Origin: a virus
IMG/VR virus record: IMGVR_UViG_3300005542_000014
Span: 1-37,917 of that record
DNA: 37,917 nucleotides
Reading direction: 5' to 3' (one strand)
Part shown: positions 5,145-37,917 of the stretch, one piece after another
Numbering within the stretch: the first letter of the stretch is position 1
Layout of the letters: the number at the start of each line of letters is the position of its first letter
Notes under the pieces: generated by a model
The model's input: only the letters and a program-made list of their open reading frames with translations
Databases searched by the model: none
What the model was told of the DNA's origin: nothing
Translations under genes and position numbers: made by a program

Positions 5145-6163
5145 GCGAGCGCAAAGGCTTCATGCCTGATTTGTCTCAGTTCTACAAGCCGTTCTTTGAC
5201 GACCGCGACCGAAAGGTCGCGGCGACGAACACCGAAGAAGGCTATCAACTTCGCAAAGCCGGTGTCATCCCGGAGAAGAAGCTCGACACCGACACTGCGT
5301 ACAAGGCCGTCGATTTCATCGAGACATACACTGGCCGCGCCTTCTATCCGCTCGCACCGAGAGTCGAGGACGTGACGATCATCGACATTGCGCACCACCT
5401 ATCCAATCAGTGCCGCTATTCCGGCGCAACCAAATGGATGCTCTCGACCGCGCAGCATTGTTGTTTGCTGTACGATTATGTGAGGAACATCTATAAGGGC
5501 AGTTGGCTAGACTGTCTGCAAATCCTGATCCATGACGGGGCCGAAGCATACCTCGTTGATATGCCGCGGCCGGTCAAGCAGCACATGCCCGAATTCCGGG
5601 TGTGGGACCGCAACATCCAAATGGTCATTCGGTCGTGGGCCGGCCTTGCCGATGTGCCGATCCCAAAGTGGCAAGATGAACTGGACTCGCGGATTATCGT
5701 CGATGAACGTGCTCAGGTCATGAGCGAGAGCACGAACGATTGGCAACATGATCTTGAACCGCTCGGCATTCGCATCACACCCTGGACCCCGGTACAGGCC
5801 GAACAACAATTCCTCATGCGCTATGCTCAGTGCACGCACCGCATCTTCGGTAAGCATCAATACTTGCGCAGCGCATGGGGCATCCCGACAATTTCGCATT
5901 ACAAACCGGCAGACTTCAAGACCGGCGGCAGTGATGTAGTGCAATACGGCGATACTGATACGAAAATTTTGACCGACTTGATGGAGGTTGACTTCCGCGG
6001 TGGCGTCGGTCGCGTCGCGGTACGCTCGCCGGACGGCATGATGGTCCGGGACACCGACGCAGGTACATTCCCCATGCCGGCGTGGAAATGGGTCCGCGGC
6101 GAATTCGAGCTAACCGAACCGGGCTTTCATGCCGCGGTTCTTGAAGTGGGCGCACCGCAATGA
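5141..6163 (+). CDS. HD-domain phosphohydrolase, YfbR-like
   Basis: 340 residues. The core matches phage HD hydrolases of the YfbR type, which act on deoxynucleotides: AFYPLAPRVEDVTIIDIAHH (ending near residue 84), STAQH near 102-106, and the HD pair in ILIHDGAEAYLVDMPRPVK near 131-132. Metal-binding histidines and the HD aspartate are present. The protein is longer than the usual ~200 residues, with about 50 extra residues in front and over 100 behind (MRYAQCTHRIFGKHQYLRSA onward). That tail is not recognised. Possible roles are dNMP or dNTP hydrolysis to supply or edit the nucleotide pool. It is coupled to its neighbours by ATGA overlaps. Confidence 0.8.
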   Translation: MSERKGFMPDLSQFYKPFFDDRDRKVAATNTEEGYQLRKAGVIPEKKLDTDTAYKAVDFIETYTGRAFYPLAPRVEDVTIIDIAHHLSNQCRYSGATKWMLSTAQHCCLLYDYVRNIYKGSWLDCLQILIHDGAEAYLVDMPRPVKQHMPEFRVWDRNIQMVIRSWAGLADVPIPKWQDELDSRIIVDERAQVMSESTNDWQHDLEPLGIRITPWTPVQAEQQFLMRYAQCTHRIFGKHQYLRSAWGIPTISHYKPADFKTGGSDVVQYGDTDTKILTDLMEVDFRGGVGRVAVRSPDGMMVRDTDAGTFPMPAWKWVRGEFELTEPGFHAAVLEVGAPQ

Positions 6164-11258: not shown

Positions 11259-11458
11259 CGCCATGGGGATGTGTCGTGGGGCACTGGACAGGAATTCAGC
11301 TATGGCTTATATGCGTGCTGACATTCATGGTTGCGGTACTCTGCATCACGAAACACCCGGAGTGGTTTGATGGCTCAGTTGCCTATCGTGGCACCGAACT
11401 TTACCGAGACGTGGGTATCCGCCCTGAGTCGAATGACCATGGCGACGACGGTCAGTGA
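11255..11458 (+). CDS. one-TM small protein
   Basis: 67 residues from a GTG overlapping the previous stop (GTGA). The TM segment is IQLWLICVLTFMVAVLCI, followed by a polar tail rich in Asp. It overlaps the first 89 bases of the sugar isomerase gene in another frame. A later GTG at 11276 is an alternative start. Confidence 0.45.
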   Translation: MTPWGCVVGHWTGIQLWLICVLTFMVAVLCITKHPEWFDGSVAYRGTELYRDVGIRPESNDHGDDGQ

Positions 11459-11969
11459 CGACGGCGGCCGGGTGAAATCTCTCGACGAGGGCGTGCTGGC
11501 ATTCCGCCGATTGGCCGCACACCACATTACAGACAACGGCGGCCAATTCATTCTCGCCGGCAACGGCGGTTCGCTCGCCATCGCCGCGCACATTGCTACC
11601 GACTTCTGTCTATGCGGTTGGCCGTCGATTGCTCTGACCGATGCGGTGACCCTCACGTCGCACACCAATGACTACGGCGCCGAAGCGAATTTCTCCAAGC
11701 AACTCGAATTGTCGCGCATCCTCGTCGATGACATTTTGATCGTCATGTCGTGCAGCGGCAAGTCTCCGAACATTCTTGACGCCGTGCGCTTTGCCAAGAG
11801 CGAAGGGCACAAGGTTGTCACCCTTTCCGGGTTTGAGCACGACAATCCGTTGCGCTCGCTCGGCGATCTGAATTTTCACGTGCCAGCGTTTCGTTACGGT
11901 TGGGTGCAACTCGCGCATGAGAGCATCCTTCACGCGGCGTGCGACATAGAAGCGGGATGGACGCCTTGA
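11370..11969 (+). CDS. SIS-domain phosphoheptose isomerase-like protein (GmhA-like)
   Basis: 199 residues. The GmhA-type hallmarks are present: AGNGGSLAIAAHIATDF (64 on), SHTNDYGAEANFSKQLE (98 on), SCSGKSPNILDAV (127 on) and AHESILHAACDIEA with E184 and H188. GmhA converts sedoheptulose 7-phosphate to D-glycero-D-manno-heptose 7-phosphate, the first step of heptose synthesis. The typical GNS Asn is Lys here (SGKS). A GGAG SD supports the ATG at 11370. In a phage this suggests supply of a heptose-type sugar, in line with GT9-like genes at 985 and 33286. Confidence 0.8.
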   Translation: MAQLPIVAPNFTETWVSALSRMTMATTVSDDGGRVKSLDEGVLAFRRLAAHHITDNGGQFILAGNGGSLAIAAHIATDFCLCGWPSIALTDAVTLTSHTNDYGAEANFSKQLELSRILVDDILIVMSCSGKSPNILDAVRFAKSEGHKVVTLSGFEHDNPLRSLGDLNFHVPAFRYGWVQLAHESILHAACDIEAGWTP

Positions 11970-21568: not shown

Positions 21569-21894
21569 GCGGCTTCACCAAAACCAATTGCGCGCTCGGC
21601 GCCGATTGCGCGTGTGTTCGTAACTCCAAGTATTTCAACTGTCCGAATTGGGGCCGATCCTCGCTCGCCGCGCCGGCTATCATCGGTCGCGATCCGCAAT
21701 ATGGTGGCGGCGGCAAGAAGGTCGAACGCGCCAAGAAGAAAGTCAGCCGTCTGGACTACGAGAAGCAAGTCGGCGCCTTGCGCCGCGATGGCGAGCGCCG
21801 AGTGAGAAATTTCGTCGAGACGGAAAAGCGATTGCGCGAAATCCGGCACTCCGATCCGCGGAAGCATCTGCGTCGGAAGGGCATCAAGATATGA
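21565..21894 (+). CDS. small hypothetical protein, Cys-rich N-terminus
   Basis: 109 residues from the ATG at 21565 (AAGGAAAG SD, ATGA overlap); an ATG six bases earlier is too near the SD. Cysteines sit in TNCALGADCACVRNSKYFNC. The rest is very basic and helical (KKVERAKKKVSRL, RRVRNFVETEKRLREI). May bind nucleic acid or metal. No family recognised. Confidence 0.55.
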   Translation: MSGFTKTNCALGADCACVRNSKYFNCPNWGRSSLAAPAIIGRDPQYGGGGKKVERAKKKVSRLDYEKQVGALRRDGERRVRNFVETEKRLREIRHSDPRKHLRRKGIKI

Positions 21895-22388
21895 TTTGGC
21901 TGGACATGGACGGCGTTGTCGCCGACTTCGACGAGGGCTACTTCCGACACTTCGGCGTGCGGCCGACTCGATGGCCTGAGCCTGAGACTGTCGATTGGAA
22001 ACTCGTTCACTCCATCCCGGACTTCTACAGCAAGCTGCCGTTGATGCCGGGCGCCCATGATCTGTTTCGCTATGTTGACGAGCTTGGCTTCGGCGCCGGT
22101 TTCCTCACAGGTGTTCCAAGAAGTATCTCGTCATGTGAGCCACAAAAACGCGCGTACATCGAATATCACTTCGGGCCGGATGTTCTTGTTCAAGGATGCC
22201 CGGCGCGCGAGAAGTGGCATTTCGGCGAGCCGGGCGATGTGCTGGTCGATGATTACACTAGATACCGGGTTGAATGGGAGGTTATGGGTGGTATCTTCAT
22301 CCATCACACGTCAGCCGCCGCGTCGATCCGCGAGATAGGGGAGCTTGTATCATGGGGCATCATCGGGGAGGATTGTTTGCCGCACTGA
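21891..22388 (+). CDS. HAD-family 5'(3')-deoxyribonucleotidase-like protein
   Basis: 165 residues. HAD motif I is IWLDMDGVVADF (D5, D7), motif II sits near FLTGVPRS, and motif III/IV is DVLVDDYTRYRVEW near 118. The short length and the motif order match NT5C-type deoxyribonucleotidases, which dephosphorylate dNMPs. In a phage this would trim the dNMP pool, together with the HD, MazG-like and DUF5664 enzymes. Start is the ATGA overlap at 21891. Confidence 0.75.
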   Translation: MIWLDMDGVVADFDEGYFRHFGVRPTRWPEPETVDWKLVHSIPDFYSKLPLMPGAHDLFRYVDELGFGAGFLTGVPRSISSCEPQKRAYIEYHFGPDVLVQGCPAREKWHFGEPGDVLVDDYTRYRVEWEVMGGIFIHHTSAAASIREIGELVSWGIIGEDCLPH

Positions 22389-22588
22389 TCGCATTCGTGA
22401 TCTTCCATTCGGGAGACGGGAGCATGATGGGTTTTGATCCAGGCAAAGATACCACGATCATCGTTCGGCGAGTGCCGCCGGGCACCGGCATTGACGGCAA
22501 CACGCTAATTTCGACCGGAGCCGGCACGGTAGCGGTTCAAGAGTCGGTCGAGGAAGTGATTGAGAAGATAGATGGGAGCCACAAATGA
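22352..22588 (+). CDS. small protein with hydrophobic N-terminus
   Basis: 78 residues from the ATG at 22352 (GGGAG SD): HHRGGLFAALIAFVIFHSGD is a short TM or signal-like segment, then TTIIVRRVPPGTGIDGNT and EESVEEVIEKIDG-type acidic end. A second good start (GGGAGC before the ATG at 22424) would remove the TM. Overlaps 37 bases of the nucleotidase. No family recognised. Confidence 0.5.
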   Translation: MGHHRGGLFAALIAFVIFHSGDGSMMGFDPGKDTTIIVRRVPPGTGIDGNTLISTGAGTVAVQESVEEVIEKIDGSHK

Positions 22589-23031
22589 AACTTTATTTTG
22601 CTGCACCGCTGTTCACGACTGCCGAGCGCGACTTCAATGCCGCTGTCGTGAGGCATCTTCGCCTCGCCGACCATGAAGTGTTCCTGCCGCAAGAGACTGA
22701 GCAAATCGAGACGAAAGCCGGTGCGATCTTCGGTGCCGAAACCGGGGCGATGAAATGGTGCGAAGCCATCGTGGTCAACGCAGACGGCCCGGACCCGGAC
22801 AGCGGATCGTCATGGGAACTTGGCAACACATGGCGCGACAAATTGTCCGTGGCTTACCGAACCGACATTCGGGACGTGGATGACGGCTTCCCGCCGTTCA
22901 ATCTCATGCTCACTCAATCGGTTAACGTGGTTCTTAACTGTAAATGGAAAACGGTCGAACAAATCGCTGACGCTATTGACGCCGCTTTGCGTGAGCTATA
23001 TGCCAGCGGTGCGCTACCCAAGGGTACGTGA
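22585..23031 (+). CDS. nucleoside 2-deoxyribosyltransferase family protein
   Basis: 148 residues. LYFAAPLFTTAERDFNAAVV and HEVFLPQE form the typical start; GPDPDSGSSWELGNTW holds the Glu that is the nucleophile in this family; YRTDIRDVDDGFPPFNLM follows. Members swap bases on deoxynucleosides or hydrolyse dNMPs to base and sugar phosphate (DNPH1-like). Both would alter the nucleotide pool. Start is ATGA-coupled. Confidence 0.8.
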   Translation: MKLYFAAPLFTTAERDFNAAVVRHLRLADHEVFLPQETEQIETKAGAIFGAETGAMKWCEAIVVNADGPDPDSGSSWELGNTWRDKLSVAYRTDIRDVDDGFPPFNLMLTQSVNVVLNCKWKTVEQIADAIDAALRELYASGALPKGT

Positions 23032-25525: not shown

Positions 25526-26593
25526 TCAAGCCACGGTGCGGCCGATCCACTTGTTGATGGTTGCATGAATGTCGTGCCGGTAAGTCCATGCGAGGTAAGC
25601 GGCAATCGAGCCGACGATCACAAGTCCGGCGACGAGCGCGATGTTTCCAGAATGCGTGCTGACCCATTGGTGCAAGCCGATATATGTGCCCGGCACCGCG
25701 GGGGTAGCGACTTTCATTGTCTTGGAAACAGCCGAGCGCAGGTTCTTCGCGCGGTCGAGCGCCGCATCCGTAGCCGGCCCGACAACGCCGTCGTCGCTGA
25801 GATTTGGATGTGTAGCCTGAAACTTTTTGACGGCCGCTTCGGTGTCGTCATCGAAGGTGCCGGTGACCGCTGTTGCGATGCCGGCGGCATTGAGCTTCTG
25901 TTGGGCATCGGTGACTTCCGGTCCCGAGTCGCCCTTCTTGAGCGCGCCTGGATGCGCAACCGGCGGTGTGGCGTTCGCCGGGGGCGGCGCCGCGACGGTG
26001 CCGGCAACGTGGGTCGCCGGATCGGTCGGATATGCGGTGAGAAGATCGCCGTAGCCGTGATATGTTTCGCGACCGGCTGCGTTGGGAACAACGTTTGTCG
26101 GCCCGGTCAGGTGACCGTAGTTGCCGGCGCTCACCATCGCCCAATCGGTTGCGCGCCGACGCACAAGGTCTTGGAGCACGCGACCGCCAGCCCGGCACCA
26201 ACTTTTCATGCTCGTCTCTGCTTCGGTCATGCGGCCGGCACCGAGCAATTTCGGCCACGTGGCTTTGCGAATGCCACCGCAATTGAAATGGAAGTCAACG
26301 CCGCCATCGACGGCACCTTGCGGGTGCTGATACGTGCCGCCGCTAAGCGCGCGCAGCGTGTCGGGCAGATAGTTTTCGCGGATCGACTTGAGCAAGAACC
26401 ATTCGGCTTGCTGTTCGGTGATGACGAGTCCGGGACCGACTTTCCAGGGCAGACCCTTGTCGTAGTTGGTCAGACCGTAGCCGACTGTCCAGACGTGAAC
26501 CGTATCCTGATAGGCGCGAAGTGCGCGACCTTCCTCAGAGCGCGTGCGGTTCAAGCCGCTCAATGAAACGTCGGTGGGAAGCTGTGTGCCCAT
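25526..26593 (-). CDS. endolysin: GH24 lysozyme with peptidoglycan-binding domain and C-terminal TM
   Basis: 355 residues. GH24 catalytic triad by spacing: E21, D30 (+9) and T36 (+15) in SEEGRALRAYQDT and VWTVGYGLT, as in T4 lysozyme (E11, D20, T26). A PG_binding_1-type domain runs about residues 215-280 (GDSGPEVTDAQQKLNAAGI, DGVVGPATDAALDRA). A Pro/Ala linker lies between. A hydrophobic segment near 318-338 (NIALVAGLVIVGSIAAYLAW) makes the enzyme membrane-tethered at its C-terminus, which is unusual for endolysins. ATG at 26593 with GGGGA SD. Confidence 0.9.
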   Translation of the reverse strand: MGTQLPTDVSLSGLNRTRSEEGRALRAYQDTVHVWTVGYGLTNYDKGLPWKVGPGLVITEQQAEWFLLKSIRENYLPDTLRALSGGTYQHPQGAVDGGVDFHFNCGGIRKATWPKLLGAGRMTEAETSMKSWCRAGGRVLQDLVRRRATDWAMVSAGNYGHLTGPTNVVPNAAGRETYHGYGDLLTAYPTDPATHVAGTVAAPPPANATPPVAHPGALKKGDSGPEVTDAQQKLNAAGIATAVTGTFDDDTEAAVKKFQATHPNLSDDGVVGPATDAALDRAKNLRSAVSKTMKVATPAVPGTYIGLHQWVSTHSGNIALVAGLVIVGSIAAYLAWTYRHDIHATINKWIGRTVA

Positions 26594-26614
26594 GATCGTA
26601 TCCCCGAATTTTGG

Positions 26615-26690
26615 TCAGGGCGGTGTGATTTGAACACACGACCCCTTGCTTCCGAAGCAAGTGCTCTAAACCGGACTGAGCTACGCCCTG
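26615..26690 (-). tRNA. tRNA-Pro (CGG)
   Basis: Cloverleaf on the minus strand: acceptor CAGGGCG/CGCCCTG (7 bp), D arm GCTC/GAGC, anticodon stem CTTGC/GCAAG with loop TTCGGAA (anticodon CGG, codon CCG), T arm GTGTG-TTCAAAT-CACAC. Discriminator A. CCA is encoded at 26612-26614. All arms pair without mismatch. Confidence 0.9.
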
Positions 26691-27011: not shown

Positions 27012-27015
27012 TCAA
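26987..27015 (-). promoter_or_regulatory. promoter for the tRNA and lysis genes
   Basis: On the minus strand TTGACG (27010-27015) and TAAACG (26987-26992) are 17 bases apart, with TGG just before the -10. TTGACG overlaps the stop codon of the upstream gene. The same GGCTTGACG-N14/15-TGGT-A/T-AA arrangement occurs at 34982-35010 and, less clearly, at 33261-33289. Confidence 0.5.
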
Positions 27016-27632
27016 GCCTTCATGCCGCCGGCTTCCGGGCGCAACGGCCGCGGATCGGGGATAGCTTCGGTGAGCCATAGGAACGATGGGGAACCGAAAG
27101 TGGCTTGCGTCCAGCCGGACATGCTGCGCACGAACGGCCGCAATTGCGCCTCATGGTGGTTCCATCCGCGGATGAAGCCCGGCGCCGCGTTCCAGCGTTG
27201 GTGTCGCACGAAATGTTCTGCCTCGACCGTCATCGGGACGCCGCACAGGATGATGTGCGTGTATCCCGTCTCGCGCGCGATCTTCGTCATGAACAAGCCC
27301 GACGATCCTTGCCAGTCTTTCGTATGGTTCGTGAAGTTCTTGTAAGGCCGGTGCGCCCACGTCGAGCCATACGGCAGCGGGTGGCCGTTCTTTTCGCGCA
27401 ACACGGTCCAGGCAATCATCTTGTCCGGGTGAAGCGTGCACGCGAAGTCGATGCGATGTGGAAACAGCGCGAGCAAGTCATTGCAGACAAGCGTCGTGTA
27501 CGTCTTGCCGGCAGCTTCGCACATGAGCCGAGCCGCATCGAATTCCGACAGCGGATCGCCGCCACCGCCGACAACGAGGGCCACGTCCTTCTTATCGTGA
27601 AATACGGAAGGTGATTGACCGGGTGTTGGCAT
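27012..27632 (-). CDS. MptE/DUF115-like phage protein (glycan module)
   Basis: 206 residues from the ATG at 27632. VALVVGGGGDPLSEFDAARL, CNDLLALFPHRIDFACTLHP, DKMIAW and GLFMTKIARETGYTHIILCG with VPM follow the pattern of the 6-hydroxymethylpterin diphosphokinase MptE-like/DUF115 relatives seen in phages and in glycan clusters. Its position at the end of the nucleotide-sugar operon suggests a sugar-related role. The promoter -35 of the tRNA unit overlaps its stop. Upstream starts would overlap the previous gene more; the SD is weak. Confidence 0.55.
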   Translation of the reverse strand: MPTPGQSPSVFHDKKDVALVVGGGGDPLSEFDAARLMCEAAGKTYTTLVCNDLLALFPHRIDFACTLHPDKMIAWTVLREKNGHPLPYGSTWAHRPYKNFTNHTKDWQGSSGLFMTKIARETGYTHIILCGVPMTVEAEHFVRHQRWNAAPGFIRGWNHHEAQLRPFVRSMSGWTQATFGSPSFLWLTEAIPDPRPLRPEAGGMKA

Positions 27633-27855
27633 AATAGCACACAGCGCCTTTGAAGCTGCCTTCGACCCATCTAAGTTCAATATGAGGCGGTGCAGTTCGG
27701 CGGTTGAAATAAGATTGAGCGCAGAGCTTGGCATCGTCTAACGAGCCTCCAATTTGCTCGATCACTTCATACATCGTTTCGCCGGGCGACTCATGCGTGT
27801 CCTCCCGCCGCGCCGCGATGATGAAACATCCCCGTTCACTTGTCGGGTTGGTCAT
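27592..27855 (-). CDS. small hypothetical protein in glycan operon
   Basis: 87 residues from the ATG at 27855, GGGG seven bases before; the ATG at 27774 would give a shorter form. TMYEVIEQIGGSLDDAKLCA and RTAPPHIELRWVEGSFKGAV suggest a small alpha/beta domain. It overlaps genes on both sides (20 and 41 bases). No family recognised. Confidence 0.5.
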   Translation of the reverse strand: MTNPTSERGCFIIAARREDTHESPGETMYEVIEQIGGSLDDAKLCAQSYFNRRTAPPHIELRWVEGSFKGAVCYYANTRSITFRISR

Positions 27856-28804
27856 TGCTGACCCCGATCTTGTCAATCGCCGCCTCGACGGCGCGCTGTT
27901 GGCCGTACCAGTCGTAAGTCTCTTTGAGGCCGCGCTCGATGCTGTACGCCGGCTCAAAGCCGAGTGCGGCGAGTCGGGTCAGGTCGTAGCCGCGATAATC
28001 GACGCCGTTCGGTTTCGTGTCGTCCCATTTCACACGTGACGGTGCGATGCCGGAAATCTTCGTCAAGGCATCGACAATATCCTTGATCCGCCACACCGAC
28101 GCGGTGCCGAAGTTGACCGGGCCATGCGCTTTGTCCATGACCATCACAGCGGCGCGCGCCATGTCCTTGATATAGAGGAAGTCGCGGCGAGCGGAGCCAT
28201 TGCCCCAAACCACAACGTCGGTGCCGTCGCGCGCCGCCTCATAGAACTTGCGGACGAGAGCCGGCACGACATGGCCGTTCACCGGATCGAACTTGTCGTG
28301 CGGCCCGAACAAATTGCACGACACGATGTAGGCCCAATCCATTGCGGCGCGATGGCCGTAGGTTTCGAGTTGCGCGAGCATCGCCAGCTTGGCGTGAGCA
28401 TAGGCCGCCTCGCTCGGATGCGGCCGGCCCATGAAAATGTCGTCCTCGCGCAGCGGAGTACGGATTGGCGGGAACGGGTACACACAGCCGGTGCCAACGG
28501 CGGTCACCTTCTTAACTCCGCTCGCGCGAGCCGCTTCGATCACGTTGGTATTGATCCTGATATTTTCGAGGAACGACTTACCGGGATTGTTTAGGTTGCC
28601 CATGATGCCGTACACGCAAGCCGCCGCGTGAAAGACATGGGTGGGGCGAACGCCGCGGAAGATCGTCTCGACCTTGCTGGCGCTGCAAAGATCGCAATCG
28701 TCGCGACCAATGCCGACCACGTTCCGGCCCTGTAGCTTGAGCAAATCGACCACGTGAGAGCCGACCATTCCGGCTGCGCCGGTCACAAGGATAAGTTCGC
28801 TCAT
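27836..28804 (-). CDS. fcl: GDP-L-fucose synthase-like NAD-dependent epimerase/reductase
   Basis: 322 residues, extended SDR. The Rossmann motif is TGAAGMVGSHVVDLLK at 8 on; FHAAACVYGIMGNLNNPGKS and VGTGCVYPFPPIRTPLREDD are typical of GDP-fucose synthase; catalytic Tyr-x3-Lys is AYAHAK. The natural step is GDP-4-keto-6-deoxy-mannose to GDP-L-fucose, but close relatives reduce GDP-6-deoxy-heptose. It directly follows the GMD-like gene, so the two form one pathway. The gene symbol is by family resemblance. Confidence 0.8.
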   Translation of the reverse strand: MSELILVTGAAGMVGSHVVDLLKLQGRNVVGIGRDDCDLCSASKVETIFRGVRPTHVFHAAACVYGIMGNLNNPGKSFLENIRINTNVIEAARASGVKKVTAVGTGCVYPFPPIRTPLREDDIFMGRPHPSEAAYAHAKLAMLAQLETYGHRAAMDWAYIVSCNLFGPHDKFDPVNGHVVPALVRKFYEAARDGTDVVVWGNGSARRDFLYIKDMARAAVMVMDKAHGPVNFGTASVWRIKDIVDALTKISGIAPSRVKWDDTKPNGVDYRGYDLTRLAALGFEPAYSIERGLKETYDWYGQQRAVEAAIDKIGVSNDQPDK

Positions 28805-28806
28805 GA

Positions 28807-29853
28807 TTACCTCGTCAGGAATTCGGTATTGCGCACACGCTCGCGCCAGTAGTCGAGAAGATCGGCCATAGTGCGCTCAAAAGTGTATTGCGGCGCCCAT
28901 CCAGTATGCCGGCGGAACTTGGTAGTGTCTGGCACTTGAAGGTCGGCGTCAATGGGGCGCAGCCGCGCCGGATCGGTCCTGACCTGGACGACTGTTACGT
29001 CCTGATCCATACCGCGCATTGCGTGGCGAGCGAGCGACGGCGACAGGTCGAGCAATGTGTCAAGCATTTGGTCGATGGTGCGCGTCGTGTCGCCGCCGAT
29101 GTTGTAGTAGGCGCCCGGCGTCGGGTTGATGGTCAAGAGCATGTGGTAGGCCCGCACAGCGTCACGCACATCGGCGAAGGTGCGAAGTGAGTCGAGATTA
29201 CCGACCTTGATGATCGGCGGGATTTTCTTTTGCTCAATAAGTGCGATCTGCTTCGCGAAGGTGCTCTCAGCGAACACGTCGCCGCGGCGTGGCCCGGTGT
29301 GCGTGAACATGCGCGTCGTCTGCACGTTCATGCCGTAGGCTTCGGCATAGTAGCGGCCGATCAAATCGGTGCCGACCTTGCTGATCGCGTAAGGTGAGGC
29401 GGGGTGGAAACTGCATTCCTCGTTGATCGGGAGTTTGTCCGCGGGCACGCGGCCGAACACTTCCGATGACGAGCACACATGAATGATCGCATCCGGGCGA
29501 TACTTGCGCAGCGCAGCAAGCACGCGCTCGGTGCCTTGGACATTCGTGTCGAGCGTGACCAGCGGTGAGTCGAAAGACACTTTCGGAAAGCTCTGCGCGG
29601 CCAGATGGAAAACGTAGTCGGGCATACTGGCCTGGATCACAGCATCAATCGAAAGTGCGTCGGTCAGGTCGCCATAGAACAGCTTGATACGCCGGTCGCC
29701 GTCGTTTATCCGCTCGATGTGGTCCTGGATGTTGTCGAGCGGCGAGCGCCAACGCAACATGCCGTGAATTTCCCAATCCGTATTCGGGAGCAAATAGTCG
29801 AGCAAGTGCGATCCGACCATTCCTGTGATGCCAGTGATTAGCGCGCGGGTCAT
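28807..29853 (-). CDS. gmd: GDP-mannose 4,6-dehydratase-like SDR
   Basis: 348 residues. TGITGMVGSHLLDYLLP (7 on), GDLTDALSIDAVIQASMPDY, HLAAQSFPKVSFDSPLVTLD, then VCSSSEVFGRVP with the catalytic region and SPYAISKVGTDL holding the Tyr-x3-Lys. HTGPRRGDVFAESTFAKQIA is the GMD-type substrate loop. The normal product is GDP-4-keto-6-deoxy-mannose; a heptose substrate is possible because a GmhA-like gene is in the same genome. The gene symbol is by family resemblance. Confidence 0.85.
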   Translation of the reverse strand: MTRALITGITGMVGSHLLDYLLPNTDWEIHGMLRWRSPLDNIQDHIERINDGDRRIKLFYGDLTDALSIDAVIQASMPDYVFHLAAQSFPKVSFDSPLVTLDTNVQGTERVLAALRKYRPDAIIHVCSSSEVFGRVPADKLPINEECSFHPASPYAISKVGTDLIGRYYAEAYGMNVQTTRMFTHTGPRRGDVFAESTFAKQIALIEQKKIPPIIKVGNLDSLRTFADVRDAVRAYHMLLTINPTPGAYYNIGGDTTRTIDQMLDTLLDLSPSLARHAMRGMDQDVTVVQVRTDPARLRPIDADLQVPDTTKFRRHTGWAPQYTFERTMADLLDYWRERVRNTEFLTR

Positions 29854-29875
29854 GCACGGACTCCCCCTCTAAGGC

Positions 29876-30298
29876 TCATGAAAATATATTCCAGTTGCCG
29901 AACTGAGGTTCAAGATCGCTGGCGAGGCAGTCGATCTTATGATCTTTGCGGCCGGCGCTGTACGCAGCCACGATGTTCTTTGCGGTGTTGCGCACGCCGT
30001 TGACCGAATGCGTGAGCTTCAAGAGCTTGTCTTGTTCGGAGCCACCGAGTCGCGCCCGGCTTTCGTTCTCCCAAATGTATCGGTTGGAAAGCATGATGAC
30101 CATAATCGCGTGCACATCCTTCGCAGTCATCTTGCCGAGGGACGGGTCGGCGAGCATCAAGTCAATATCGTGCAGAATAAGCTCGCGCTCGGCAACGTAG
30201 GCGTCTTTGTGCTCCGGGATGAAGATTGCTTTCAACTGCACGATTGCGAGGCGGTCGATAAGCTCGGCGAGGGTCGGAAGGTATTTGCGCTCGGTCAT
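29876..30298 (-). CDS. hypothetical protein of the glycan module
   Basis: 140 residues. LAELIDRLAIVQLKAIFIPE, DIDLMLADPSLGK, MVIMLSNRYIWENESRARLG and LTHSVNGVRNTAKNIVAAYS. The LIDRLxIxxLK start is reminiscent of DUF6165 and related phage glycan-cluster proteins, but I am not sure. It is ATGA-coupled to the beta-propeller gene. Function unknown. Confidence 0.6.
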   Translation of the reverse strand: MTERKYLPTLAELIDRLAIVQLKAIFIPEHKDAYVAERELILHDIDLMLADPSLGKMTAKDVHAIMVIMLSNRYIWENESRARLGGSEQDKLLKLTHSVNGVRNTAKNIVAAYSAGRKDHKIDCLASDLEPQFGNWNIFS

Positions 30299-31227
30299 AT
30301 CACGCTCCGCAATTCGTCAAGGTCAATGGTAGCGACGAACGGTTGTTCCTGTAGGGCAAGCGGGCCGGCTGACGGATCGTCGCGACCGTAGGACAAAATG
30401 ACGCGCTTGCCGTCCGGGTGATAGGCCATGCCGATCACGACTTCAAGCCCCTCTCCGAATAGTTGGAATGCGTCGGAAATACCCAAGGGTCGGCCTGCGC
30501 GGTCGAGCTTGGCGAAGTGCTGCCATGTGCGGCGCCGATCCTCTGTGTACGCATGAACTACGCACAGGCCGCCGTCCTGGTACGGGATGACTTGTGAGCC
30601 ACCGTTCAAATGCGCGAAGTCTTGGCGGGCATCAGCAAGAGGAACGAGGCCGCCGATGGGATTGACGAGCGTGCCGAGTCGGTAGTGCAAGCGAAGCTCG
30701 CCGTTGGTCATGTCGGGCATGAAGTTCTTTTCGCTTGGCGCCGCCGGGTCGCCGATGACGCGGCGAACATCGGTGAAGGCCGGAACGCGCTTACCTTCGT
30801 CGATGCGTGCCATGTAAAATTCAGCTTCCGGTGTTGCGCCACAGCCCGACGCACACAACGTCATCCATAGTTGATCGTTGCGTCCGAACAGACGACCACT
30901 CTCGAAGCCGCGAAAGCCGCGAAATGATTTGCCGGTCGGCGTCGGCGTCGCACTCGGCGGCGTTGCAATTTCTCGCACCATAGCTACGTCAAGATCGTGA
31001 TTGAAGTACGCAAGGTAGGTGATGTTGCGTGCGTCGGTGTGCTCATACGGCGTGCCGGGTGGCAACGGCCAGAAGCCGCCTTCCGGTGCGAGGTACTTGT
31101 TCATCGCGCATACACTCGCCATGATCTGCCCGCATCCGGGGCGCACCATGACCGAGGCATTTGTAAGCATGAAACCTTCCTTGACGGGAAAGCGGATCGG
31201 CTTCTCGATTGTGGATTTGAACATCAT
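30295..31227 (-). CDS. beta-propeller glycosidase/glycosyltransferase-associated protein, copy B
   Basis: 310 residues from the ATG at 31227 (ATGA coupling). SEKNFMPDMTNGELRLHYRL, LNGGSQVIPYQDGGLCVVHA and GLEVVIGMAYHPDGKRVILS. Repeated strands with a sensor-like K-N-x-M-P motif suggest a five-bladed propeller of the GH43/GH130-like kind. It is a paralogue of the next gene, sharing the same blocks. Hydrolase or phosphorylase activity on the phage sugar is a guess. Confidence 0.6.
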   Translation of the reverse strand: MMFKSTIEKPIRFPVKEGFMLTNASVMVRPGCGQIMASVCAMNKYLAPEGGFWPLPPGTPYEHTDARNITYLAYFNHDLDVAMVREIATPPSATPTPTGKSFRGFRGFESGRLFGRNDQLWMTLCASGCGATPEAEFYMARIDEGKRVPAFTDVRRVIGDPAAPSEKNFMPDMTNGELRLHYRLGTLVNPIGGLVPLADARQDFAHLNGGSQVIPYQDGGLCVVHAYTEDRRRTWQHFAKLDRAGRPLGISDAFQLFGEGLEVVIGMAYHPDGKRVILSYGRDDPSAGPLALQEQPFVATIDLDELRSVI

Positions 31228-32261
31228 GCCCGGACTCCCGGACGGATGATGCGTGGTCGCGTCGCGTTGCGCGGAGAGCGGATCGTCGGTTGTACGCGAG
31301 GCATGTACGGTCGGCGCGTCTGGACAGTCCGGCCTTGCGGCTCGCCATTCCACTGCATTGCGCGAATATCGTCGAGCGACACATCGGCGACGAACGGCCC
31401 GTGCGAGATAACGGCGCGGCAATTGTCCGGGTGCAGTGCGAGGCCGGTGACGACTTCGACCTTTTCCACATCGTACAGGCAGAATGGTTCCGACAGCGCA
31501 ATAGGTGCACCCGATCTGTCAAACTTCACGAAATAGTGGCGATACTGCCGACCGGGTGTATCTCTGCCGAAGTGGAAGTCGTGCACAATGGCGAGGCCGC
31601 CGCCATTGAACGGAATGACTTGAGTGCCGCCGTTGATGCTGGTCCAATCTTGACGACCGACCACGTATTCAAGTCCCGTAAGATCAATCAACATGCCGAG
31701 GCGATAATGATAGCGCAGAGCATCGTCGATCACTTCCGGCATCCAATTCTTCTCGTCACCGCGCCGCGCGCCGCGCGGAGCAAGTTGATGAACTTCGGTG
31801 ATCGCTGCGCCGTCGAGCCGACTCAGGAAAAAGTTAAGATCGCGACCTTCGCGCCCGGCGTAGAAGTCCATCCACAATTGGTCACGCCACTCAAACGGCT
31901 TCGGCCCGTCGAAACCGGCGCGCGAGTGGCGGAATTTCTCGGCGAGCGGATCGACAGTCTGCGCGAAGATAATATCTTGTACATCCTCGACCGCGAAACA
32001 GTCGGAGAGCGTGACGAGATATGGCGGCCGATGCGATGTAGGGATGCCTGGACGACTTCTCGATCCAGGTGGTGCCACATAGCGCACATACTTCGCAGTT
32101 CGTGGATCATAGACCATGTTGGACGCCCAAAAGGCGCCGACGAGTTTGCCTTTGAAAGTAGTGACCGAACTGCCGATCAAGAAGAAATCTTGATGTGCGG
32201 GAAAGTCGATCATACGTTGTTTGAATGACGGGCAAAGCGCGGCGAGCGGGGGCGCGATCAT
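31224..32261 (-). CDS. beta-propeller glycosidase-like protein, copy A
   Basis: 345 residues. DEKNWMPEVIDDALRYHYRL, INGGTQVIPFNGGGLAIVHD and VEVVTGLALHPDNCRAVISH align block by block with copy B, so the pair is a tandem duplication that diverged. It has an extra C-terminal basic tail (MPRVQPTIRSPRNATRPRI) ending PGVRA. Coupled by ATGA to the DUF5672 gene. Confidence 0.6.
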   Translation of the reverse strand: MIAPPLAALCPSFKQRMIDFPAHQDFFLIGSSVTTFKGKLVGAFWASNMVYDPRTAKYVRYVAPPGSRSRPGIPTSHRPPYLVTLSDCFAVEDVQDIIFAQTVDPLAEKFRHSRAGFDGPKPFEWRDQLWMDFYAGREGRDLNFFLSRLDGAAITEVHQLAPRGARRGDEKNWMPEVIDDALRYHYRLGMLIDLTGLEYVVGRQDWTSINGGTQVIPFNGGGLAIVHDFHFGRDTPGRQYRHYFVKFDRSGAPIALSEPFCLYDVEKVEVVTGLALHPDNCRAVISHGPFVADVSLDDIRAMQWNGEPQGRTVQTRRPYMPRVQPTIRSPRNATRPRIIRPGVRA

Positions 32262-33211
32262 GCTTTCACTCCGGGCTGACGTGTCAGGTATCCGATCATG
32301 CGCCGATGACCGTTGTGATGCGGGAGTCGCTGTTGTCCGGGGCTGGCCGGGTTTTGTGGCGGGACGACGGGCCGCGGTCGCGGCGTGATCGGCAGACGAA
32401 CGGTGCGAGCGTTGCGCCGCGCAATGACAGGCCGAAACTTATTCTCGGCATTCAACAATTCGGGTCCGATGAATTCTCGCATCCAAGGCCACTCCGACGA
32501 AAGTAAGCGGAGCTTCGGCGTCGCCGTCACGATGTATTGGTTTTGCATGACGAGTTGTACGCGGCGCTTCAACTCGTCGCGGTCGAGTGCGAGCGGCCAG
32601 TTGAAAACGTCGTGGTAACCGAAGCTCGGCGGCGCGTCCTTGCGCGCCTGATAGCCGTGCTCGTATGCGAACTGAAAGCCCACATCTTCGGGCGCCCACA
32701 CCGCGCCGCAATCCTTCTCGAAAAACTGACGGTGCTCGCGGCAAAGATGCACGTCGGTCGCGACTATGAAGCGATCACTGTTCGCATGGATCGAGTCGGC
32801 GAGCTTCTTCGACAACAGCATGAAGCCGCCATTGCCGACCGAATGTTCGCGTTTGTTGTCTCGCGCCCATACCCACGGTGCGCCGATCATGTCGTATTTC
32901 AGGAAGTCATCCCGCCAAGACGATACGTCGCGAATGCCCGCATCCCATTCCATCATCAAGACGTGCGAAGTCTTGGCGGCCTGCGCTGCGTGCGAATAAT
33001 AGAACGTGCCTTGCTGGATTTTGTCGGGCCAGTTGGGGGCGGGAATGATCCGAGTGATCGCCGACTCGGTAAAGAAAAGCTCCGGTTGATCTGTGTACAG
33101 GATTACTTCACCGAACTGGACCTTCGATGTTGCGTCGAGGATCGCCTGCCGAGCAAGCTCATGCGTTTGTGTCTCGACCAGGATAAGGGTCACGTCGGGC
33201 AGGGAGAGCAT
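32258..33211 (-). CDS. DUF5672-like glycosyltransferase
   Basis: 317 residues. LPDVTLILVETQTHELARQA, HVLMMEWDAGIRDVSSWRDD, FLKYDMIGAPWVW, VGNGGFMLLSKKLADSI and GYHDVFNWPLALD match the DUF5672 glycosyltransferase plan. The short acidic stretch (EWDAG) stands where the family has a DxD-like site. A Pro/Arg-rich tail follows. The SD GGAAGG is good. Confidence 0.75.
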   Translation of the reverse strand: MLSLPDVTLILVETQTHELARQAILDATSKVQFGEVILYTDQPELFFTESAITRIIPAPNWPDKIQQGTFYYSHAAQAAKTSHVLMMEWDAGIRDVSSWRDDFLKYDMIGAPWVWARDNKREHSVGNGGFMLLSKKLADSIHANSDRFIVATDVHLCREHRQFFEKDCGAVWAPEDVGFQFAYEHGYQARKDAPPSFGYHDVFNWPLALDRDELKRRVQLVMQNQYIVTATPKLRLLSSEWPWMREFIGPELLNAENKFRPVIARRNARTVRLPITPRPRPVVPPQNPASPGQQRLPHHNGHRRMIGYLTRQPGVKA

Positions 33212-33240
33212 GGGGACCTTCCGGGAGTAGTTTGTATAGC

Positions 33241-33263
33241 AAAATGGCCCTTAGAGGGCCATT
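33241..33263 (-). terminator. rho-independent terminator upstream of the DUF5672 gene
   Basis: On the minus strand AATGGCCCT-CTA-AGGGCCATT (9-bp perfect stem, 3-base loop), then TTTT. It would end the mRNA of the upstream GT9 gene. Next to it, TGCTATACA is a possible extended -10 that could restart transcription. Confidence 0.65.
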
Positions 33264-33285
33264 AACCACGGCGAACTACTCTGCG

Positions 33286-34386
33286 TCAAGCCTTGATCTG
33301 GCCGCGGCGTGCTAACAGGGCCGGATTGCCCGGCCGAATGACTCGTTGCCGAAGCGCGAAGCGGTTGATCGGAATGGCATCGGCGACCGTGGCCGGCGCG
33401 AACATTTCAGTTACCGGACGGCTTTCAGCAAACGTTGAAACCTCGCAATTCGCTCGGCAAAATTCATGCACTCTGGCGATTGCCGTTGGCACGTCGATCT
33501 TCTTGGTGCAGGGATTGGTACAGCTTGACGTGCCGCACTGACACGGCTGCATCGGCTCGATGCCAAGCCAGGGCGCGTGCTTCGCGCCGTCTGCCAGCCA
33601 AGATGCCGGCTCGTAGCCGCCGAGGATGGAAATGCAAGGGGTGTTGACCGCGGGCGCAAGAACCGCTGCGAAGCCGCTGGACGTGTACACGCACGTCGCG
33701 CTCTTGAACAACGCGGCGAGTAATTCAAACGTAAGCTCGCCCTTGTGCAGCGTCACGTCCGCTTTCAACTCCGGGCCGACGATCCACTCCCGCATTGGTT
33801 CAAGATCGGCGACCGAAACAACAAAGAAGTTATCGCGGATCGCAGCGAAGATTTCTGCGTAGTCGGTGGCGTTGGCGTTGCGGACCTGACTGCCGCGCCA
33901 CTCCGGTCGAGCGACGAGCGGCCGATAAACGAGAAGCGGCTTGCCGGTGTTCGGCCAATGTCGGGAGACTTCATTGAACAAACGGAAAGACCAATCGTCC
34001 GGCACAGGCAACGTGAAGTCGGCGGCCGGGTAGCCGACCGCCGCACTCGCGCCCTTGAACATCGCTTCAAGAACGCTGCGCGACGCGCACTCGTTGATGG
34101 TCTTGGTGCCGTAGGAGAAGCGGATCGTCGGCATGTGATGATGCGGCGCCGGATTGTCCGAAAACTTCTCGCGCTCGCGACTCGCATTCTTCAATTGAGT
34201 GCGGAGCGCGACCGGCCGATTGACGACGCGCAAGCCGTCGCCAAGCAAGTCGTGATAGATACAAGGCCAGGATGTTTCCAGGACGATGTTGTAGCTCTGC
34301 ATGAGGTAGCGGAGCACTGCGCGTTGATGGAGGTTATCCCCCATCCCGTGCATCCCATGGACAAGCAGCAATTGCTTACTCGTCAT
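33286..34386 (-). CDS. glycosyltransferase family 9-like protein
   Basis: 366 residues. LLLVHGMHGMGDNLHQRAVL (with G-x-G-D) is the GT9-type start; GYPAADFTLPVPDDWSFRLF lies in the N-terminal half; the C-terminal half has GELTFELLAALFKSATCVYT, SSGFAAVLAPAVNTPCISI and a Cys-rich PCQCGTSSCTNPCTKK near residue 285. This is the nucleotide-sugar-binding half. It is longer than the one at 985. A role in adding the phage-made sugar is likely. It overlaps the next gene by 11 bases. Confidence 0.7.
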   Translation of the reverse strand: MTSKQLLLVHGMHGMGDNLHQRAVLRYLMQSYNIVLETSWPCIYHDLLGDGLRVVNRPVALRTQLKNASREREKFSDNPAPHHHMPTIRFSYGTKTINECASRSVLEAMFKGASAAVGYPAADFTLPVPDDWSFRLFNEVSRHWPNTGKPLLVYRPLVARPEWRGSQVRNANATDYAEIFAAIRDNFFVVSVADLEPMREWIVGPELKADVTLHKGELTFELLAALFKSATCVYTSSGFAAVLAPAVNTPCISILGGYEPASWLADGAKHAPWLGIEPMQPCQCGTSSCTNPCTKKIDVPTAIARVHEFCRANCEVSTFAESRPVTEMFAPATVADAIPINRFALRQRVIRPGNPALLARRGQIKA

Positions 34387-34569: not shown

Positions 34570-34953
34570 TTACCCGTGCGTGATGGTGGCCGCGGTGAGC
34601 GTGACCGATTGGCCGGCGACGATGGACGTGCTCGACAGGTTAATGTCGCTCGCCGACGTGCCCACGGTCAGACCGGAAATGACCACGTGACCGACGCCAT
34701 CTTCGACTTCGGCCTGTGTCGCTGTGCCCGTGTTGCCCGCGCTCGCATCGACCAGCGGCGTACCGCTGAATGTGAGAACGCCGCCCGACACGGTGCCGCA
34801 AGTTGCGGAGAACGTGATGGCGGCGAGCAAATGAGCACCGGAGAAGCCAACCGAGTCGCCGAACAGAAGGGAGCCGGCACCGCCGTTGTCGATGGCCGTA
34901 ACCACCGAAGTCATGCGGGTGTTTTTCAGGGTCGTGTTGTAGGTGACGGACAT
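34570..34953 (-). CDS. small phage structural/decoration protein
   Basis: 127 residues. It starts SVTYNTTLKNTRMTSVVTAI and ends GLTVGTSASDINLSSTSIV plus GQSVTLTAATITHG, a pattern I recall from small beta-rich structural proteins of siphoviruses and prophages. It has a strong SD, GGAGGGA, and a promoter at 34982-35010. It is probably part of the tail or head surface. Confidence 0.65.
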   Translation of the reverse strand: MSVTYNTTLKNTRMTSVVTAIDNGGAGSLLFGDSVGFSGAHLLAAITFSATCGTVSGGVLTFSGTPLVDASAGNTGTATQAEVEDGVGHVVISGLTVGTSASDINLSSTSIVAGQSVTLTAATITHG

Positions 34954-35018: not shown

Positions 35019-37917
35019 TTAGGAAACGATCAAAAGTCGCCGTTTTCGCGGGGTCGGCGGCACGACTTCCGGGATTAAGAAGCCGGCCGACGCGAAGCGG
35101 TCCCTGAATTCGGTCGAATGCCATACGGCAGTGACCGCCGGGCCAATGTTGCTAAAGCCAGGGCGGTCAGGAAGCTCGCGTCCGTTCATGCGTGCGGTGA
35201 TACCGTTACCGATGACCCACGCGCCGCCCGAGAAGCTGTCTTTGCGGTCGGTGCTGGCCCACGTGCAGAAGGCCGGGACCCATCCAAGCCATCCGATGCT
35301 GAGATAGGGTGCCTGAGCCGGGGCGCCGCCGGGCTTATCCTTGGCGTCCGTAGCGGCCATGGCGGCGGTCGCCGGCACATAGCCGACCCAACCATTCGGC
35401 GACGAGATACCGATGGATGTGAAATCTCCGGGGTGCGTCAATTTGTCTTTGGTTTCGATGCTGCCCCACGTGCCTTCCGGCGGCACTGGCAAGCCGACCG
35501 GGATCGCGTCGCCGATCATGACCCAAGTGGTCGGCGACGGCGAGGCATCGAAGGTCGCGATGCCAGCCGACAAAAGCGTCGGCTGATACATGAATTCGAT
35601 TGCGATGTTCGCGGGCGGCCCCGCACTCGTCAAGCTCAAGGCCGGCGGGTTGTCTGAGAAGAACGGCAGTGTCGCATCCGGCCCTTCATCGGTCGAGAGG
35701 TTTGCGGTGATACCGAGCAAAAGAGTGTGCGGATTGATCGTGCTCATTCCGGTGACGTGAGGGAACACGCCCGCACCGCCGCCTGTGTTGGAGTCATTGA
35801 GCGCCGGTAGTGTGTTAGAGCCATCCCAAAACGGTTCGCCGACCGCGAGCGCCGCTGTCGTATTACCGACCGCAAACATAACGCAAGACACGGTGTCGCC
35901 GTTCGCCGTGTTAGCAGTGTCGATGACGACTGTATCGCTACCATCCGGCGGGCCGCCGCTTCCGAAGGCGTACCACGTTTCGAGAGCGATCAATCCAGTA
36001 GGGTCGGTGACGCGGGAACGGCGCTCAAAGGCGGGAGACGAGAATTTATTTTCGGAGTCGGTGATACTTGTCACAGTGCCGAGGCCGCTCGCCGACTCGA
36101 TCAAGACGGCACAGATGTACATCAAATCTTGATTGTAGAACGTGACGCCGGTCATCGGCACCGACTCATTGGTGCTCGTCAGTTCCAAGGTCGTGCGCGA
36201 TCCGCCGGGGTCGAGAAAGAATTGGACCGGCTGATCGGTGCTCGGCTCGCTCCATTCCACAAGCGCGTCTTGAAAGAGGAAACGAGTATTGAAGCCACCG
36301 CCGGTTTGACCGAACTGAATTTGCAGATTGCTTTGCGGCACCCCGGTTACCGCCGACGCCAAGCTCGCATAGAGTGTGTCGCCATTGTGCTCGGCTTGAT
36401 TTACGTTGGCATTGACAGTGAATGGGCTAGTGATCGTGTGCGTGTTATCGACACCATTGCTGGCGTACATTGCAAGCATCAACGTGTTGTTCGCTTTGGT
36501 ATAGAAAACATCGGTCGGATTGCCGGACCCGACATTATCAGATGCTCGGCCCGCAAATGTATGCAAGTCCCACGGCGATGCCGGATTGGTGCCAGTGACA
36601 CCGAGGGCAATGAGTGAGCAAGCACCATTACCTGCGCCGCCGAAGTGCGCGGTGATAACATCGGCCGACAGCGGAGTCGGCGCCGCGGCCCACCAAATCT
36701 CGACGTAGGGCGCCCCGCCGTGGATGCGGCGGATATTTCGACGTTTCCAGGTCAAGCCGGCAGTGTCAGTGACGCTAGTGATCGGATTGAAGTTGAAGTG
36801 CCCGCCGGACACCGCGTACAGTACGATCACTTCCTCGTCGAAGTTCGTGCTCAGCGTAACGCTTGCCGACGTGATCGGGGGATTGCTCGGCGTCCCCGCC
36901 CCGCCCGTCTCGATAGTGTCGATGGCGAGCGTGCGCGCCTCGAAACCGGAGAAGGTATCTTTGGTGTCGGTCGAAGCCCACGTGCCTTTCAGTTGCGGAT
37001 AGCCGGCGCCTGCGAACGTGTCCTTGGCTTCGGTCGGCGCCATCGTGCCGGTCGGCGGCGGCGTAGGATCGGCCGTAAGCGCGAGGACAAGCTCGGTCCA
37101 TCCCACTGAGTTGCCGGTTGCTGCATCCTGGAACGTCGCGCTCGATTGCGTCGAAGTCACTGCCTTCGTATTGACGCCGAGAGCGATGCCGGCGAGGCCG
37201 CTATTGTCGTTCGGTGAAGCGATCTGAGTCCATCCGCTCGGCGCTGTCGGGAATTCGTTTGTGCCGAATGGATTGATGTTGATCGACAAGCCAATGAGAA
37301 GATCATGATTGAGGCTTGTGCTAAAGGTGACAGCCGGCGGTGTGGTGTTAGATGAATTAAAGGCGGAAGCCGCCAGCGAAACGTTGTTGTCGAATGCCTG
37401 CGTAAGACTATTAAGTCCTTGAATGCCGATAATGCACACGGCTGCGTCATCGACTTCTTGGCCGCTCCCCCAATTGACCGTATAGGTCAGGTTGGCGCCC
37501 CCGGAATTGAATGCCGAGCTTGCCGGCGCCCCCCACACTTCGATGGTGTTATTTGATGCACCGGAAGTCGAGTTATCGACGCTGAATAGCTTGGTGAAGG
37601 TGAGGCCGGTCACCGTGACGCTGGATACGGTTACGTCGGCGCCTGAGCGAAGGTTATATCCGATCAAAGCGAGGAAATACTCATTCGCGCCCGCCGCCTT
37701 GTTGGTCCCGGAAAAGCTCAGGGACGCGGGCGACGTGAGCGAGTGGCCGTGCCCGGTCAATTCGCCGAACGTTGCATCGACGTTAGGTGGCACCGGCTGA
37801 CCTGTGCCGCTCGCCGACATGGTGTCGGTCGCTTCGGTCGAAGCCCACGTGCCCGATGGAGACGAATTATCGCCAGTGATGGCAAATTGCACAATCGTTG
37901 TGTCGTTGTTATCGAGG
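35019..37917 (-). CDS. giant tail/fibre protein with repeated domains (5' end outside window)
   Basis: The frame is open to the window edge (before GTG at 37892 it reads LDNNDTTI), so the gene starts outside. At least 965 residues are visible. A motif of the form G-T-W-A-S-T-x-x-K-D-T/S-F-S-G recurs about seven times, near residues 14, 281, 302, 806, 846, 877 and 924 counted from the GTG. Between them lie three related beta-rich domains (GLTFTKLFSVDNSTSG, GLTWKRRNIRRIHGGAPYVE, FERRSRVTDPTGLIALETWY). This suits a long tail protein, baseplate or fibre. Receptor binding is inferred only. Confidence 0.7.
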   Translation of the reverse strand, partial: LDNNDTTIVQFAITGDNSSPSGTWASTEATDTMSASGTGQPVPPNVDATFGELTGHGHSLTSPASLSFSGTNKAAGANEYFLALIGYNLRSGADVTVSSVTVTGLTFTKLFSVDNSTSGASNNTIEVWGAPASSAFNSGGANLTYTVNWGSGQEVDDAAVCIIGIQGLNSLTQAFDNNVSLAASAFNSSNTTPPAVTFSTSLNHDLLIGLSININPFGTNEFPTAPSGWTQIASPNDNSGLAGIALGVNTKAVTSTQSSATFQDAATGNSVGWTELVLALTADPTPPPTGTMAPTEAKDTFAGAGYPQLKGTWASTDTKDTFSGFEARTLAIDTIETGGAGTPSNPPITSASVTLSTNFDEEVIVLYAVSGGHFNFNPITSVTDTAGLTWKRRNIRRIHGGAPYVEIWWAAAPTPLSADVITAHFGGAGNGACSLIALGVTGTNPASPWDLHTFAGRASDNVGSGNPTDVFYTKANNTLMLAMYASNGVDNTHTITSPFTVNANVNQAEHNGDTLYASLASAVTGVPQSNLQIQFGQTGGGFNTRFLFQDALVEWSEPSTDQPVQFFLDPGGSRTTLELTSTNESVPMTGVTFYNQDLMYICAVLIESASGLGTVTSITDSENKFSSPAFERRSRVTDPTGLIALETWYAFGSGGPPDGSDTVVIDTANTANGDTVSCVMFAVGNTTAALAVGEPFWDGSNTLPALNDSNTGGGAGVFPHVTGMSTINPHTLLLGITANLSTDEGPDATLPFFSDNPPALSLTSAGPPANIAIEFMYQPTLLSAGIATFDASPSPTTWVMIGDAIPVGLPVPPEGTWGSIETKDKLTHPGDFTSIGISSPNGWVGYVPATAAMAATDAKDKPGGAPAQAPYLSIGWLGWVPAFCTWASTDRKDSFSGGAWVIGNGITARMNGRELPDRPGFSNIGPAVTAVWHSTEFRDRFASAGFLIPEVVPPTPRKRRLLIVS

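Follow-up and report, generated by a model that had tools for sequence, protein, structure and literature searches.

A glycan module flanked by virion genes and the endolysin

We analysed the 37.9 kb contig IMGVR_UViG_3300005542_000014, classed as a virus record, over its full 37,917 nucleotides (the window), and concentrated on a glycan module of eight co-directional minus-strand genes (27012-34386) located between virion genes and an endolysin. Genes are designated by the first position of their coordinates. The right arm, on the minus strand, runs from 35019 and 34570 through 33286, 32258, 31224, 30295, 29876, 28807, 27836 and 27012 to a tRNA-Pro gene and the endolysin; the ORFs of the module mostly abut or overlap by 4 bases. 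The left arm, on the plus strand, carries replication genes (polymerase, helicase, exonuclease and nucleotide enzymes). It also holds a deoxynucleotide phosphatase (5141-6163), a GmhA-like SIS protein (11370..11969), a deoxyribonucleotidase (21648-22388) and a nucleoside 2-deoxyribosyltransferase (22585-23031). All the genes named in an earlier reading of this DNA from its letters (the sequence-only reading) lie where it had placed them, and those of the module are on the minus strand. Its description of the surroundings as a tail/lysis region was right in outline: virion proteins lie upstream, and tRNA-Pro(cgg) (26612..26690, minus strand) and the endolysin that bounds the module (25526..26593, minus strand; PHROG 7, 3.8e-31) lie downstream.

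The module starts with gt9b (33286..34386), a glycosyltransferase with the fold of glycosyltransferase family 9 (GT9), and a DUF5672 putative glycosyltransferase (32258..33211). They are followed by a five-bladed propeller with the fold of glycoside hydrolase family 130 (GH130) and GT108 (31224..32261), a paralogous propeller whose start is an ATG overlapping the previous stop (30295..31227), the 140-residue protein u29876 (29876..30298), a GDP-heptose-type 4,6-dehydratase (28807..29853), an Fcl/GMER-like epimerase-reductase (27836..28804) and the conserved module protein u27012 (27012..27734). Directly upstream, also on the minus strand, are the small virion structural protein v34570 (34570..34953; PHROG 3758), a candidate glycan acceptor with 29% Ser+Thr and 1.6% Lys+Arg, and a large Ser/Thr-rich protein, likely a virion or appendage component (35019..37917; 21.5% Ser+Thr, 3.8% Lys+Arg), which runs off the contig. 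The latter has no PHROG match, and its weak relatives lie beside v34570 or gt9b in related (kin) phages.

The module is a real gene set and not a chance arrangement, since in 13 other viral contigs the GT9-like gene immediately follows the same virion gene, and most of these contigs contain the rest of the frame. Kin contigs are metagenome-derived viral records, and no close match at the DNA level was found among phages. Relatives of the left arm occur in contigs of up to 159 kb, and close ones in contigs of up to 127 kb. Hence, the contig probably covers part of a larger genome, and little can be concluded from a gene that it lacks. An alphaproteobacterium is the probable host, judging by the closest dehydratases and by the polymerase of Roseobacter phage RDJL3. 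Relatives of u27012 (45-58% identity) are found in 11 kin loci, and a profile search of the PDB gave no match for the family. The protein u29876 matches DUF4254 only at E 0.093; it accompanies heptose-type dehydratases in three other contigs (L015, L042, L044) and also lies near glycan genes of other viral contigs.

A heptose-type dehydratase and its partner

The dehydratase 28807 matches PF16363 (4.5e-75) and scores 316.9 bits against the Campylobacter GDP-heptose 4,6-dehydratase (7us5), versus 143.2 bits against the GDP-mannose 4,6-dehydratase (GMD) of Escherichia coli. It reaches 187.7 bits with the NCBIfam GMD equivalog TIGR01472, whose cut-off is 415. The motifs SSSEVFG, YAISK and TGITGMVG are present. 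Aligned with 7us5, the E. coli GMD, two GMDs of kin phages and further relatives, 28807 shows the 7us5 version of the catalytic region (ASPYAISK.GTD, TRMFTHTGPRR) and not the GMD version (RSPYA.AKLYAYW, ILFNHESPRR). In a tree of 81 sequences, 28807 groups with bacterial enzymes of alphaproteobacterial type (L104-L106; Shimodaira-Hasegawa-like approximate likelihood ratio test, SH-aLRT, 88), and the classical GMDs split off with an SH-aLRT of 100. By family, 28807 is a GDP-heptose-type and not a GDP-mannose dehydratase, and GDP-heptose would be its substrate. The sequence-only reading had proposed a GMD-like and a GDP-fucose-synthase-like enzyme: the pair of short-chain dehydrogenase/reductase (SDR) enzymes stands, while GMD in the sense of a GDP-mannose enzyme falls on the comparison of 317 with 143 bits. 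Both SDR enzymes carry catalytic residues, S-x-E and YxxxK in 28807 and Thr/Tyr/Lys with Cys109/His179 in 27836.

The partner 27836 matches PF01370 (3.8e-52) and is nearest to GDP-fucose synthetase (193 bits), below the equivalog cut-off of NF047922 (GDP-L-fucose synthase; 232.4 of 500 bits). It keeps Tyr, Lys, Cys109 and His179 (E. coli numbering), with Thr in place of Ser107. Position 109 is Ala in 10 of 10 kin-phage Fcls aligned and in three of four Fcls from bacterial heptose clusters. As the role of Cys109 and His179 as an epimerase dyad is known (PMC7949155), 27836 should both epimerise C3/C5 and reduce; the Ala109 enzymes may only reduce. Because 27836 keeps the dyad, the likely product of the two enzymes would be the C3/C5-epimerised (L-galacto) form. 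The enzyme also shares a one-residue insertion and a 'PFP' segment with the enzymes of bacterial heptose clusters, which weakens, without settling, the idea that Fcl was simply retained from kin phages.

The dehydratase differs from that of kin phages. The left-arm kin phages G023 and G010 and the contigs found through the GT9-like family share a common frame of v34570, gt9b, ..., Fcl and u27012, which also includes DUF5672. The dehydratases of G023 and G010 are classical GMDs (469 and 463 bits to GMDs versus 134 and 117 to 7us5), and most other module contigs encode homologues 69-75% identical to the G023 enzyme. For example, L243 has v34570 (85% identical to that of the window), gt9b, DUF5672, a classical GMD, two genes of one unassigned family, Fcl and u27012, in this order. 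The window has the same module ends, and its middle consists of the two propellers, u29876 and the heptose-type dehydratase. The computation shows a swap from a hexose-type to a heptose-type dehydratase in this contig relative to kin phages. G010 has a cluster (L100:1347-8539) that looks like an unusual phage sugar pathway. It encodes an HldE-like kinase-nucleotidyltransferase (601 aa), a 505-aa protein that joins a SIS domain to a thiamine pyrophosphate (TPP) dehydrogenase E1 domain, a transketolase-like partner and, beside the Fcl orthologue, an SDR.

The nearest bacterial relatives of 28807 (L104-L106) all lie beside an HddA-like kinase and an Fcl-type partner, and several such contigs also hold GmhA and HddC/GmhB. 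In Martelella (L105), an HddA-like kinase is followed by the dehydratase and by an Fcl 55% identical to 27836; upstream lie GmhA and a fused guanylyltransferase-phosphatase (HddC/GmhB). The kinases of L104 and L105 score 128-144 bits to HddA, below the equivalog cut-off, and are named by family. Among other relatives, one cassette has HddA (472 bits), GmhA, HddC (285 bits) and GmhB (L112), and another a GHMP kinase, GmhA and an HddC/GmhB-like fusion (L116). Two isolated phages, Caulobacter phage Cr30 and cyanophage SynMITS9220M01, have GmhA beside a heptose kinase, and the latter also encodes a dehydratase 48% identical to 28807. The grouping of 28807 with GDP-heptose enzymes and the company kept by its bacterial kin support the GDP-6-deoxy-heptose logic put forward in the sequence-only reading.

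Further contexts were observed among viral records. Putative viral contigs (L006-L016, L025) carry a row of dehydratase, GHMP kinase, SDR, GmhA-like, cytidylyltransferase-like/cupin fusion and glycosyltransferase genes. Further viral contigs (L017-L043) have a heptose-type dehydratase beside a DegT aminotransferase, many also with split TPP-enzyme genes. A 700-residue frame (L044:9938-12040) joins the first 189 residues of the dehydratase to further sequence and is either a fusion or an assembly fault.

The entry enzyme of the pathway would be 11370, whose assignment as a GmhA-like isomerase held up: SIS_2 is over its cut-off and the best PDB matches are phosphoheptose isomerases. The protein keeps the equivalents of His61, Gln172 and His180, which together with Glu65 are the metal and catalytic residues of GmhA. 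HxxxD at the metal site, where cellular GmhA has HxxxE, is common to the phage GmhA-like proteins of this contig, L006, L054, L100, L168 and L182.

Transferases, propellers and a shared C-terminal tail

The protein 33286 is, on its AlphaFold2 (AF2) model (predicted local distance difference test score, pLDDT, 82.8; predicted template modelling score, pTM, 0.82), a GT9-fold enzyme nearest to heptosyltransferases, including the protein heptosyltransferase TibC. Its structural matches are the GT9 protein 3tov (Z 20.1), TibC (Z 18.9), WaaF (Z 18.3) and WaaC (Z 17). GT9 structures rank first and other enzymes stay at Z ≤ 11.4, except for plant NDH-complex subunits (Z 15-17). A Pfam search with the family (11 members) gave no GT9 match and a PDB profile search gave nothing useful; proteins 33% identical to gt9b are annotated as GT9 in Pseudomonas phages. 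The family has an invariant N-terminal GxGD, at the position where GT9 enzymes carry the catalytic Asp, and four C-lobe cysteines (282, 284, 289, 293) invariant in 11 of 11 members. Model residues 1-318 align to TibC 92-393. The N-terminal beta-barrel of TibC (residues 1-97) is absent and the cysteine spacing differs from that of its four-cysteine iron finger, and we did not file gt9b as a bacterial autotransporter heptosyltransferase (BAHT). The donor sugar cannot be read from the fold, because in kin phages gt9b occurs with a hexose-type dehydratase.

The sequence-only reading of 33286 as GT9-like is thus borne out by the model despite the lack of a Pfam match, and that of 32258 as DUF5672-like by PF18922 (43.3 bits, gathering score 24.4). 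For the left-arm gene 985, which it had also called GT9-like, no support was found: there is no Pfam match, a result of the sequence profile only, the fold not having been compared. It was right on the two propellers, which are paralogues (38% identical); they have a fold of GH130/GT108 type and are not tail parts. The model of 31224 (pLDDT 73.8, pTM 0.77) is a five-bladed propeller that matches GH130 phosphorylases (Z 21.0, 2.9 Å over 259 residues) and Leishmania GT108-type mannosyltransferases (Z 16); in sequence it stays under the Pfam PF04041 cut-off (10.4 bits, E 0.3; cut-off 26). As a pattern-search query, 31224 alone retrieved no viral relative, and a two-row alignment retrieved eight distant ones; no match was found among plasmids. 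The GxEDxR motif, whose Asp is the GH130 catalytic residue, is degenerate in both (GFDGPK and GFESGR). Viral relatives keep the motif; with its loss, the propellers of the window may be inactive or altered.

Four module proteins have similar C-termini. The DUF5672 protein, 31224 and u27012 end in GVKA (...QPGVKA), GVRA (...RPGVRA) and GMKA (...AGGMKA); gt9b ends in QIKA (...RGQIKA), which falls outside the strict pattern G-x-[KR]-A. In 31224 the C-terminal tail is disordered, and the paralogous propeller lacks it. Across 14 loci, the strict pattern ends 31 of 60 transferase-like or accessory module proteins versus one of 228 other ORFs, and it never ends the dehydratase or Fcl. The single exception (L244:6142-6861), an unassigned 239-aa protein that ends in PRGKGVKA, lies inside a module and is probably another tailed transferase.

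It may be argued that such ends are a by-product of the Shine-Dalgarno sequence and start codon of the next gene (GGRnnnAARGCATGA) and hold no peptide signal, since 22 of the 31 tailed ends overlap a start codon and 23 use GCA for Ala. Yet, the tail occurs in 9 of 22 transferase ends without ATGA overlap versus 0 of 191 others (p 2e-10), and among overlapping ends in 22 of 38 transferases versus one of 37 others (p 1e-7), p-values that overstate the case because the families were named after the tail was noticed and related copies are not independent. Tailed ends also use GCC, GCT and GCG for Ala and the stops TAA and TAG, and the dehydratase and Fcl lack the tail. After these tests on overlap, codons and stops, an effect of ribosome-binding sites only is largely rejected, and we regard the by-product explanation as rather doubtful. 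The residues before the tail have very low model confidence in both AF2 models (31224 and gt9b), as expected of a flexible linker, which this segment may be. The probable role of the tail is to bring transferases of unrelated families to a common partner. More tentatively, it would be a docking signal that gathers the GT9-like, DUF5672, GH130-fold, u27012 and other proteins on one partner, perhaps a virion protein. They would form an assembly line for protein glycosylation in which the cassette for sugar supply is exchangeable and would here have changed from hexose to 6-deoxy-heptose.

Target of the glycan

We propose, with moderate confidence, that these genes form a late-operon virion glycosylation module of heptose type, whose transferases build a glycan on a Ser/Thr-rich virion protein. 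The GT9-fold 33286 and the DUF5672 protein 32258, perhaps with 31224 and 27012, would build it on the neighbouring 34570 and/or 35019. The sequence-only reading had left the target among the virion, host lipopolysaccharide (LPS) and phage DNA. The virion is favoured over the other two because the Ser/Thr-rich v34570 directly precedes gt9b in the 13 other contigs, some of them overlapping records from a single phage, while none of the six sampled kin genomes without gt9b (G002, G005, G008, G011, G016, G018) yielded it; G001 has gt9b without v34570.

Several observations weigh against this proposal. HddA, GmhB and HddC were not recognised in the contig, itself probably a fragment, and a GHMP kinase is absent from it and from all 27 left-arm or GT9-like kin records searched; of four dehydratase-relative records searched, only L004 was positive. 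The sequence-only reading had likewise seen no kinase or GDP-transferase step: the kinase is indeed missing from the contig and no guanylyltransferase was recognised. The protein 11370 scores 75.6 bits to GmhA TIGR00441 (cut-off 209), and has Asp in place of Glu65 at the metal site, a replacement shared by other phage forms that adjoin heptose kinases. Other dehydratase relatives adjoin DegT aminotransferase and TPP-enzyme genes; hence, members of the family may differ in substrate. The approximately unbiased test does not separate a joint arrival of Fcl and dehydratase from retention of the kin-phage Fcl (p 0.13 and 0.09). Finally, we infer the virion glycan from the genes.

During infection, the module could modify LPS, O-antigen or capsule at the host surface, causing superinfection exclusion or receptor change, as thought for glycan genes of cyanophages and temperate phages. 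GT9 includes the LPS core heptosyltransferases matched by gt9b (WaaC and WaaF, Z 17-18), the bacterial cassettes L112 and L116 lie, by inspection, in polysaccharide-type clusters, and cyanophage heptose genes are annotated as LPS-related (PMC7378029). However, the late position beside virion genes, the tight linkage to v34570 and the fact that no flippase, polymerase or anchor gene was recognised make this explanation rather unlikely. The SDR pair might instead act on GDP-mannose and yield GDP-L-fucose or GDP-D-rhamnose, a 6-deoxyhexose supply of the kind known from chloroviruses and expected in kin phages; the heptose-type sequence would then mark lineage and not substrate. Same-frame kin phages do use a classical GMD, contexts of the dehydratase family without GmhA or kinase exist, and HddA and HddC are absent from the contig. 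We nevertheless consider it improbable, given the distance of 28807 from classical GMDs, the HddA-like kinases beside all three nearest bacterial relatives and the GmhA-like gene on the same contig. Glycosylation of phage DNA, which does occur in phages and for which the 2-deoxyribosyltransferase (22585) and nucleotide phosphatase (5141) might speak, is very unlikely, as no base-hydroxymethylating or other base-activating enzyme was recognised and the module adjoins virion genes, away from the replication arm.

The heptose-type virion module that we propose shares with the GDP-6-deoxy-heptose pathway of Campylobacter and Yersinia the dehydratase family, an Fcl-like partner (GMER-like reductases there) and GmhA at entry. 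It differs in being phage-borne, in that no cupin C3/C5 epimerase was recognised and in that kinase, phosphatase and guanylyltransferase are not on the contig. We know of no heptose supply in the virion glycosylation of mycobacteriophages, which are unrelated to this phage. There, glycans are reported on capsid and tail subunits (Freeman et al. 2023, cited through PMC12619734). Chlorovirus PBCV-1 glycosylates its major capsid protein with virus-encoded GMD/GMER and transferases (PMC5408694). Both viruses encode a dehydratase, an epimerase-reductase and transferases, but PBCV-1 is an algal virus with a classical GDP-mannose enzyme and proven capsid glycans, whereas the acceptor here is deduced from genes. 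SynMITS9220M01 and Cr30 have another gene order and other transferases, and we found no functional tests of their heptose genes in the literature. TibC and the BAHTs are protein heptosyltransferases with a GT9-type catalytic fold (PMC4358343), which 33286 shares together with a four-cysteine C-lobe cluster, with the differences in barrel and spacing given above. Likewise, 31224 has the fold of GH130 mannoside phosphorylases and GT108 mannosyltransferases, but not the Pfam score or the intact GxEDxR.

Genes for sugar nucleotides in phages are commonly interpreted as serving surface polysaccharides. In this contig, the evidence from linkage, fold and tail points to a virus that coats its own particle, and the swap of one enzyme should convert the sugar from a six-carbon to a seven-carbon one. 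Should this prove correct, the module would allow a clean comparative test of the role of virion sugars. It would also provide a phage candidate for a protein glycosyltransferase with the heptosyltransferase fold, and a short motif by which more genes of such modules could be predicted.

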